Source: Burkholderia sp. MS389 (lineage in GTDB: Bacteria > Pseudomonadota > Gammaproteobacteria > Burkholderiales > Burkholderiaceae). Taken from it: a stretch of 64,000 bases of DNA. The first letter of the stretch is position 1. Every line of letters starts with the position of its first letter. Shown here in pieces: positions 59,824 through 61,283 of this stretch. The position numbers and the translations under genes are program-made. The notes below the pieces were generated by a model, which saw nothing but the letters and a program-made list of their open reading frames with translations, had not been told where the DNA came from and searched no databases. The stretch is taken from contig NZ_CP045994.1 of assembly GCF_016899425.1 (NCBI RefSeq), positions 744,001 to 808,000 of the forward strand, given 5' to 3'.

Positions 59824-60897
59824 TCAGTTGCCGCTGCCGCGCGCGACGCGCCGCGCCTTCACCGATTCCGCGAGGCCTTCGAGCACCTTCACGCTGTCGT
59901 CCCACGCGATGCACGCATCGGTGATGCTCTGGCCGTAGGTCAGCGCGCAACCTTCCTTCAGGTCCTGGCGACCCTCGACGAGGTGCGACTCGATCATCAC
60001 GCCGACGATGCGCTCGTCGCCGGCCGCGATCTGGCGGCCGATGTCCGCGCACACCGGGATCTGGTTCTCGTGCTTCTTCGAGCTGTTCGCGTGGCTCGCA
60101 TCGATCATCAGGCGCGCGGCGAGGCCGGCCTTGCCGATGTCCGCGCAGGCCGCGTTCACGCTGTCCGCGTCGTAGTTCGGCGTCTTGCCGCCGCGCAGGA
60201 TCACGTGGCAGTCTTCGTTGCCGGCCGTCGACACGATCGCCGAATGGCCGCCCTTCGTCACCGACAGGAAATGGTGCGGCTGCGACGCGGCCTTGATCGC
60301 GTCGACGGCGATCTTCACGTTGCCGTCGGTGCCGTTCTTGAAGCCGACCGGGCACGACAGCCCCGATGCCAGCTCGCGGTGCACCTGCGACTCGGTCGTG
60401 CGCGCGCCGATCGCGCCCCACGAGATCAGGTCGGCGATGTACTGCGGGCTGATCATGTCCAGGTATTCGGTCGCGGCCGGCAGCCCCATTTCGTTGATCT
60501 GCAGCAGCAGCTCGCGCGCGGTGCGCAGCCCTTCGTTGATCTTGAAGCTGTTGTCGAGGTGCGGATCGTTGATGAGCCCCTTCCAGCCGACCGTCGTGCG
60601 CGGCTTCTCGAAGTACACGCGCATCACGATTTCCAGCTCGCCGTTGAAGCGTTCGCGTTCCTTCACGAGCCGGCCCGCGTATTCGATCGCCGCCTTCGTG
60701 TCGTGGATCGAGCACGGCCCGATCACGACGATCAGCCGGTCGTCCATCCCGTGCAGGATGCGGTGCATCGACTGGCGCGAGTGGTAGATCAGCTCGGACG
60801 CGGCTTCGGAGCACGCGAATTCGCGGATCAGGTGGGCGGGCGGCGTCAGTTCCTTGAGTTCGCGAATGCGGACGTCGTCGGTGTTGTGCGGGGGCAT
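59824..60897 (-). CDS. aroG: 3-deoxy-7-phosphoheptulonate synthase (DAHP synthase, class I)
   Basis: This 357-residue enzyme condenses phosphoenolpyruvate and erythrose-4-phosphate, the first step to Phe, Tyr and Trp. Visible motifs are VIGPCSIHDTKAAIEYAGRL (metal Cys, about residues 58-77), EKPRTTVGWKGLINDP, GFKNGTDGN and DASHANSSKKHENQ. The length and sequence fit AroF/G/H type I-alpha enzymes. The allosteric specificity cannot be read with certainty. GAGGAG lies 7 bp before the ATG at 60897. Expression is predicted to be controlled by the attenuator at 61028-61155. Confidence 0.97.
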   Translation of the reverse strand: MPPHNTDDVRIRELKELTPPAHLIREFACSEAASELIYHSRQSMHRILHGMDDRLIVVIGPCSIHDTKAAIEYAGRLVKERERFNGELEIVMRVYFEKPRTTVGWKGLINDPHLDNSFKINEGLRTARELLLQINEMGLPAATEYLDMISPQYIADLISWGAIGARTTESQVHRELASGLSCPVGFKNGTDGNVKIAVDAIKAASQPHHFLSVTKGGHSAIVSTAGNEDCHVILRGGKTPNYDADSVNAACADIGKAGLAARLMIDASHANSSKKHENQIPVCADIGRQIAAGDERIVGVMIESHLVEGRQDLKEGCALTYGQSITDACIAWDDSVKVLEGLAESVKARRVARGSGN

Positions 60898-61027
60898 GCT
60901 GTTTCTCCTCATTTTCCGGGGCGCCGTTCGGTCAGTGCGCGTGCGGCAGATTCATCAATTCGGGCAATTCAGTGGTTCCGGTCGGGGCCGCGGGACCGCT
61001 GCGGCGGCGACCGGCTGACGAAGGGCG

Positions 61028-61060
61028 AAAAAAAACCGCCGGGTTCGCCGGCGGTTTTTT
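61028..61060 (-). terminator. Attenuator terminator in the aroG leader
   Basis: On the minus strand CCGCCGG (61054-61048) pairs with CCGGCGG (61042-61036), extended by A6/U6, and is followed by eight U. It lies between the leader-peptide gene (stop at 61090) and aroG (start 60897). The only use for a terminator here is to stop aroG transcription prematurely. Its 5' arm (61054-61047) can alternatively pair with 61111-61104 in the leader-peptide codons, forming an antiterminator. Confidence 0.85.
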
Positions 61061-61089
61061 CGGGAATTTCGGTTGCGCTTTACGCGCCA

Positions 61090-61155
61090 TCAACCCTCTC
61101 GATCCGCCAGCGGTCTGAGATACCAAAAAAAGTAAAAGTAAAACTTGGCGGACAT
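61090..61155 (-). CDS. aroG leader peptide, 21 residues, eight consecutive aromatic codons
   Basis: The frame encodes MSAKFYFYFFWYLRPLADREG. Residues 5-12 are Phe, Tyr, Phe, Tyr, Phe, Phe, Trp, Tyr, all three end products of the pathway that aroG begins. It starts about 30 nt after the predicted transcription start. The ribosome binding site is weak. RNA segments 61152-61146 and 61109-61103 can pair (7 bp) with the aromatic codons in the loop, and 61111-61104 can pair with the terminator 5' arm. This is the layout of trp/phe-type ribosome-mediated attenuation. Confidence 0.85.
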   Translation of the reverse strand: MSAKFYFYFFWYLRPLADREG

Positions 61156-61192
61156 GACGGAAATTCGGCTCGTCAAAAAAGTTGATTCGGAA

Positions 61193-61221
61193 TTTATACC
61201 CGGTCCCTGCGTGGTTGGCAA
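61193..61221 (-). promoter_or_regulatory. Predicted aroG promoter
   Basis: On the minus strand TTGCCA (61221-61216) and TATAAA (61198-61193) are exactly 17 bp apart, 19 bp downstream of the tldD terminator hairpin. Transcription would start near 61186, about 30 nt before the leader peptide. Confidence 0.7.
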
Positions 61222-61239
61222 CCGGGGTCGTTCAAAAAT

Positions 61240-61283
61240 GCGGACAATCCGCGCGTTTTCGTCAAAATGCGCGGATTGTCTGC
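61240..61283 (-). terminator. Long-stem intrinsic terminator after tldD
   Basis: This is a 44-nt near-perfect hairpin: 20-bp arms 61240-61259 and 61264-61283 with loop CGTC and only G-T wobbles as imperfections. Read on the minus strand it is followed by ATTTTTG. It lies 13 bp past the tldD stop and insulates the aroG leader from upstream transcription. Confidence 0.9.

Follow-up and report, generated by a model that had tools for sequence, protein, structure and literature searches.

A predicted ribosome-mediated transcription attenuator with mixed aromatic codons upstream of the DAHP synthase gene aroG in Burkholderia and other proteobacteria

Organization of the aroG leader region

The window analysed here is a stretch of 64,000 nt from Burkholderia sp. 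MS389 (contig NZ_CP045994.1, positions 744,001 to 808,000), whose genome comprises 7.7 Mb in 3 contigs. It carries aroG, for a type I DAHP synthase, and upstream of the aroG promoter a gene on the same strand that Pfam identifies as PmbA/TldD; a leader ORF and an intrinsic terminator separate the promoter from aroG (Table 1). A previous reading of the letters alone (the sequence-only reading) had described a promoter, an ORF of 21 codons with eight aromatic ones, a terminator and then aroG, and this succession was confirmed from the sequence, as were the places of four segments able to form helices 1:2 (7 bp), 2:3 (8 bp, one of them G-U) and 3:4 (7 bp). The distance from ORF to terminator, given there as 30 nt, is 35 nt when measured from the stop codon to the stem.

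Table 1. Features of the aroG leader region, in order of transcription (positions within the window)
Feature	Position	Strand	Remarks
Terminator-like hairpin of the tldD-type gene	61234..61280	-	Stem 61280-61269 / 61254-61243, then ATTTTT; intrinsic-type; read from sequence
-35 element TTGCCA	61216..61221	-	Read from sequence; recurs in relatives
-10 element TATAAA	61193..61198	-	17-nt spacer to the -35; read from sequence
Leader ORF, 21 codons + TGA, MSAKFYFYFFWYLRPLADREG	61090..61155	-	ATG 61155-61153, TGA 61092-61090
Segment 1 TCCGCCA	61146..61152	-	Mainly a Burkholderiaceae feature
Aromatic run, codons 5-12, F Y F Y F F W Y	61120..61143	-	From sequence; synonymous changes in codons 6-10
Segment 2 GCTGGCGGA	61103..61111	-	Within the leader ORF; partner is segment 1 or 3
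Segment 3 CCGCCGGC	61047..61054	-	Terminator 5' arm; partner is segment 2 or 4
Segment 4 CCGGCGG	61036..61042	-	Terminator 3' arm
Terminator T8 tract	61028..61035	-	From sequence; T tract in 37 same-genus loci
aroG Shine-Dalgarno AGGAG	60905..60909	-	Anti-Shine-Dalgarno duplex -9.4 kcal/mol, as against -2.2 for the leader ORF
aroG, DAHP synthase type I	59824..60897	-	Pfam PF00793, E 1.5e-99

The terminator (61054-61028) consists of CCGCCGG (61054-61048), a CGAAC loop, CCGGCGG (61042-61036) and eight T, and its 5' arm is complementary to segment 2, which sits just past the last aromatic codon. Transcription would start at about 61187-61185, and aroG most likely begins at 60897, after the AGGAG and 130 nt beyond the T run. 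The hairpin at 61280-61234, with its T run, probably ends the tldD-type transcript just ahead of the aroG promoter. An automated scan of the window listed a smaller hairpin overlapping 61234..61280 and listed neither the aroG promoter nor the leader terminator, the former probably because the scan requires T at the last -10 position and the latter probably because it wants T beyond the stem, which here is lengthened by A/T tracts. The promoter consensus and the anti-Shine-Dalgarno letters used throughout are general background, not a product of the analysis.

Distribution of the leader

At 230 aroG-type loci, we scored the best short ORF upstream of aroG by its number of aromatic residues in 12 codons. 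A score of at least 6 was reached at 111/230 loci, as against 10/1150 dinucleotide shuffles, and at 4/230 loci on the opposite strand, used as a control. The finder predicted a terminator in 96 of the 111 scored leaders, and six of the remaining 15 aromatic ORFs were taken for chance ORFs; the presumed chance ORFs within the scored set are L059, L069, L108, L137, L176 and L178. Because the 230 loci are skewed to close AroG relatives and a few genomes entered twice by two routes (e.g. L016/L031 and L057/L146), counts of unique peptides are set beside locus counts below.

All 37 same-genus genomes, the own genome counted, contain the leader, with a terminator in each. Conservation of the aromatic run across Burkholderiales, which had been proposed as a check, held throughout the genus and became patchy beyond it: among 80 further loci from a search of the order (L131-L210), 23 reached the score, some of them probably with chance ORFs, and 57 were without a leader. 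The score was reached in 2/20 loci from a search of the class (L211-L230). The leader is not universal. In a midpoint-rooted tree of 80 named AroG proteins, labelled with a looser score of at least 5, it was found in 44/48 proteins on one side, comprising Burkholderiaceae, Oxalobacteraceae, Bordetella, Xanthomonas, Dyella, Devosia and others, and in 8/32 on the other, comprising Enterobacterales, Vibrionaceae, Methylotenera, most Rhodocyclaceae and others, where five of the eight are doubtful. With the doubtful labels (L107, L108, L059, L069 and L089) included, the leader label needed 10 changes on this tree, versus 23.3 in shuffles.

The promoter recurs with the leader: the -35 hexamer TTGCCA was present in 28/28 distinct upstream rows from L001-L030, and also in several Oxalobacteraceae, and TATAAA in 27/28 of these rows, the exception being TATAAG in L002. 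The bare codon pattern is not rare in the own genome, where five consecutive Phe/Tyr codons gave 20 overlapping matches at six places including the leader, and a reversed control gave 16. What marks the leader out is its position, its recurrence across genomes and its spacing, not the codon pattern as such. The three DAHP synthase paralogues of the own genome have no such leader upstream, their best ORFs scoring 2, 3 and 3.

Several loci showed arrangements of their own. Read in one frame, a (TTCTAC)n tract at G000:C2:1134576-1134626 in the own genome alternates Phe with Tyr codons; a DAHP synthase paralogue lies some 2.5 kb away. Loci L127 and L203 have tandem DAHP synthase genes, with a leader (PYFFWFWYP and PYFFWFWFP, respectively) ahead of the first copy. 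In Candidatus Burkholderia humilis (L042), the leader frame diverges past FYFYF and the finder detected no terminator, so that the locus looks as if an attenuator were decaying. Finally, an ORF, MFLNKKRSLSSIDRGAWPWRRWSR, lies ahead of trpE in the own genome (G000:C1 579564-580949, minus strand; L234), with a hairpin and a T run between the two; together they make a candidate for a separate Trp attenuator.

Conservation of the leader peptide

We compared 24 unique Burkholderiaceae ORFs, leaving out the leaders of other length L035 and L037. Codon 6 was TAC in 12 and TAT in 12, and codons 7-10 also drift synonymously. Residue exceptions were few, Phe5 being replaced by Leu once and Trp11 lost twice (L043 and L044), so codon 11 encodes Trp in 22/24; codon 12 encodes His in 15, Tyr in eight and Asp in one. 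Identity was 0.96 in the ORF, as compared with 0.78 over 33 nt ahead of it and 0.82 over 30 nt past the stop. Since the aromatic codons vary synonymously while the residues stay, and the ORF is more identical than its flanks, selection appears to act at the peptide level. An ATG opens 42/42 aligned leaders, with a finder that favours ATG among equal candidates. The aromatic run can accommodate substitutions and insertions (L037), and in L053 and L071 the residues of the peptide tail are changed and the RNA core GGCGG is kept.

The aromatic window of 74 unique peptides contained Phe, Tyr and Trp in 42 cases, Phe and Tyr only in 30, and Phe and Trp in two. The proposal of a leader with all three aromatic amino acids therefore agrees with the sequences of the window's genus and does not extend to the whole family of leaders, because 30/74 unique peptides are without Trp and only 44/74 have it.

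Structure of the leader RNA

The best complement of the terminator 5' arm within the leader beat shuffles at p<=0.05 in 66/96 loci, near-identical same-genus rows included, and in 43/59 unique leaders at p<=0.1. In these 43, segments 2 and 3 were separated by 39-59 nt, and segment 2 most often started 12 nt from the first base of the last aromatic codon (14/43; range -1 to 30).

Covariation had been suggested as a check on the three helices, and within Burkholderiaceae it was borne out at a single pair. Among 42 Burkholderiaceae leaders, helix 3:4 has one pair changed on both sides, G-C in 29 and A-U in 13, and the 2:3 partner of this variable position stays U-G or U-A. No double-sided covariation was found in 2:3 or 1:2 in the same leaders; helix 1:2 is nearly invariant there, with 98 percent of its cells paired. 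The arms hardly vary, which leaves little room for covariation. Across families, with shuffles that ignore relatedness, position 6 of 2:3 was paired in 40/56 (p 0.007), L048 and L050 having T-A and L071 having G-C, and position 7 in 39/56 (p 0.12).

To model the ribosome, we placed it at each codon and folded the RNA downstream of it. A ribosome footprint extends about 15 nt on each side of the P site, and this value was used. With the A site at codons 5-11 of the window leader, all eight 2:3 pairs form in the model before segment 4 is made; codon 12 gives 5.6 expected 2:3 pairs, codon 13 gives 1.5 and codon 14 none, and beyond codon 14 segment 2 is covered or passed. In the model, then, a stall at any of codons 5-12 agrees with the geometry of the leader.

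The same calculation was applied to 58 unique leaders, L230 being excluded from the switch and 1:2 counts, though kept in the other leader and structure counts, because its start was evidently called too far upstream. The mean probability that the terminator 5' arm is paired upstream was 0.85 with the ribosome at the first aromatic codon, 0.79 at the last and 0.18 at the stop. From the first aromatic codon to the stop, 47/58 leaders switched by at least 0.5 in the model and 11/58 failed to switch, as against 4.3 switching leaders expected by shuffling the region between; from the last aromatic codon to the stop, 42/58 switched. In the full-length RNA at equilibrium, the terminator was favoured at every ribosome position tried, and the switch must therefore be kinetic, with the antiterminator forming first.

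The attenuator logic proposed for the window accordingly stands as regards the leader ORF, the terminator and the alternation of 2:3 with 3:4, all of which are conserved. It is weaker for helix 1:2, which was significant (0.05) in 13/58 unique leaders, 11 of them from Burkholderiaceae and the other two being L051 and L098; apart from those two, the 58 leaders gave no support for such a helix outside Burkholderiaceae.

Translation start of the leader ORF

No Shine-Dalgarno sequence is evident before the leader ORF, the anti-Shine-Dalgarno duplex having a median of 0.1 kcal/mol and reaching -4 or better in 2/59 leaders. Most rows for Burkholderiaceae and Oxalobacteraceae place the best promoter-like site 22-51 nt ahead of the ATG. 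By comparison, 28/42 leaders of other lineages have a -10-like hexamer with a -35 (7 or more of 12 matches) that ends 5-9 nt upstream of the ATG; the range was picked after inspecting the promoter positions, and the sample includes hand-picked leaders with a score below 6 or without a terminator. Such a placement occurred in 6.8 percent of shuffles, 0/15 Burkholderiaceae and 1/17 Oxalobacteraceae. From the position of the hexamer, the leader mRNA is therefore predicted to be leaderless outside Burkholderiaceae and Oxalobacteraceae; leaderless-looking loci include L051, L088, L096, L099, L102, L103, L140 and others.

Proposed mechanism and alternative explanations

The aroG leader is very probably a ribosome-mediated transcription attenuator of the trp/phe/ilv type, set by the supply of charged aromatic tRNA. 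The elements of this type were found by sequence or prediction: an ORF with codons for the end products, a terminator, and an antiterminator that depends on ribosome position. From these parts, their conservation and the predicted switch, we infer translation of the ORF, termination and read-through. RNA polymerase would start near 61186 and a ribosome would enter the leader ORF. With ample charged tRNA, the ribosome would pass codon 13 and mask segment 2, leaving segments 3 and 4 to pair, and transcription would stop near 61028. A stall at any of codons 5-12 would instead leave segment 2 free to pair with segment 3 before segment 4 exists, and the polymerase would read into aroG.

An ordinary terminator next to a chance ORF, for instance the terminator of the upstream tldD, is scarcely credible as an explanation. 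The terminator does lie downstream of tldD and on the same strand, but a terminator-like hairpin of its own follows the tldD-type gene ahead of the promoter, which rules out the leader terminator as that of the upstream gene; a chance ORF is ruled out by the shuffles and the reverse strand, and it is also contradicted by the switch counts and by the recurrence of ORF, spacing and promoter across genomes. It is very improbable, too, that a TnaC-like arrest peptide senses free aromatic amino acid instead of uncharged tRNA. Such a peptide would agree with a short conserved ORF preceding an aromatic gene, but the aromatic run accepts substitution and insertion, the peptide tail differs in L053 and L071 while the RNA core persists, and the codon positions fit stalling within the run in the model. 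Somewhat less remote, though unlikely, is that the leader RNA left by termination, or the peptide, has a trans function on top of the cis switch, like rnTrpL/peTrpL of Sinorhizobium meliloti. The anatomy predicts a short transcript, about 155-160 nt long and ending in T8, and trans-acting attenuator products are documented in the available part of PMC7298713; the cis switch, however, already accounts for the conservation.

Within the attenuator reading, it is less clear which amino acids matter. Most likely, the leader senses Phe and Tyr in every lineage that has it, and Trp in those whose run includes a Trp codon. Since a ribosome halted at any point of the run does not quite reach segment 2, running short of a single one of the charged forms of tRNA-Phe, tRNA-Tyr and tRNA-Trp would suffice to open aroG, making the leader in lineages with a Trp codon a three-input OR gate, widespread in proteobacteria and with a sensor ORF that in many lineages would be leaderless and lack a Shine-Dalgarno sequence. 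We put forward this fuller picture tentatively, and as a whole it is rather doubtful. A real possibility, if somewhat short of an even chance, is that the leader senses only Phe and Tyr, or only Phe, the Trp codon being a passenger and the three-input reading wrong. The 30/74 unique peptides without Trp and the loss of Trp in 2/24 Burkholderiaceae ORFs point that way; against it, Trp occupies codon 11 in the other 22, and a stall at codon 11 still frees segment 2 in the model. A codon in the run is no proof of a response to that amino acid: aroR of Corynebacterium glutamicum, which precedes aroF and carries Phe-Tyr-Phe, responds to Phe but shows no response to Tyr (PMC11802643, available part).

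If the aroG leader works as a ribosome-mediated attenuator, an RNA switch would control the opening step of aromatic synthesis in Burkholderiaceae, Oxalobacteraceae, Bordetella, Xanthomonas, Devosia and others. This contrasts with E. coli, whose DAHP synthases are controlled by the repressors TyrR and TrpR according to the available parts of PMC5343134 and PMC11802643, although similar repressors may also act on aroG here. The leader offers a simple testable prediction, one regulator tracking three end products, and a natural series of variants differing in Trp codons and 5' UTR.

Comparison with known systems

No Rfam family reached its gathering score anywhere in the window, and membership of Phe_leader (RF01859) was rejected at 18.8 bits versus a gathering score of 55 (E 1.1). 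NCBIfam and Pfam gave no match for the window leader, and NCBIfam gave none for three relatives. Among the matches listed from the open-licence literature, no description of an aroG leader was found for these bacteria. The word aroG is absent from the main text of PMC2965389, and aroG, DAHP, heptonate and heptulosonate are absent from that of PMC5688073, on 82 short 5' UTRs of B. cenocepacia; the available parts of PMC5343134, PMC1262725 and PMC7377471 contain no description of a leader of this kind. The available part of PMC1173090 draws on a web database to list putative attenuators ahead of operons with tyrA, one Bordetella operon included, and Burkholderia aroG is absent from its available table parts. 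The aroG leader is real, widespread and apparently undescribed, and DAHP synthase attenuators as a kind are already known.

In the enterobacterial pheA and trp leaders, a leader ORF is combined with mutually exclusive antiterminator and terminator helices. The aroG leader has the same ORF and exclusive-helix layout, before a different gene and with mixed aromatic codons. The sequence-only reading had given known attenuators as using codons for one or two amino acids, which is mistaken, since the ilvGMEDA attenuator uses Ile, Val and Leu. Neshat et al. in 2014 reportedly dealt with the aroR-aroF attenuator of C. glutamicum.

Attenuation of a DAHP synthase gene is described for this aroR-aroF system in the available parts of PMC11802643 and PMC4046766. 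As is proposed for the window, a peptide with aromatic codons precedes the gene and the ribosome stalls, a response to Phe limitation being reported for C. glutamicum; the likeness is one of description and not of sequence; aroR-aroF differs in its Phe-Tyr-Phe codons, with no Trp mentioned in these parts, and in belonging to Actinobacteria. For Acholeplasma, the available part of PMC8632094 proposes, from computation, an attenuator-like motif before aroF, uORFC-13-1, which shares with the window leader a uORF with Phe codon(s), an apparent intrinsic terminator and a DAHP synthase gene, but for which at least one Phe is stated, with 24 representatives from Acholeplasma and environmental sequences. 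The aroF 5'-UTR of Shewanella carries a predicted attenuator sensing tRNA-Tyr, for which an E. coli study is cited (PMC2659441, available part); like the window leader, it is a predicted regulatory RNA before a DAHP synthase gene, and no mixed aromatic run is described in that part. Finally, according to the available part of PMC7298713, the trpL ORF of S. meliloti starts at the 5' end of its RNA, as is predicted for the Xanthomonas, Bordetella and Devosia leaders; it differs from them in having Trp codons only and in preceding trpE(G), and the window leader differs in turn by its inferred 5' UTR of about 30 nt.
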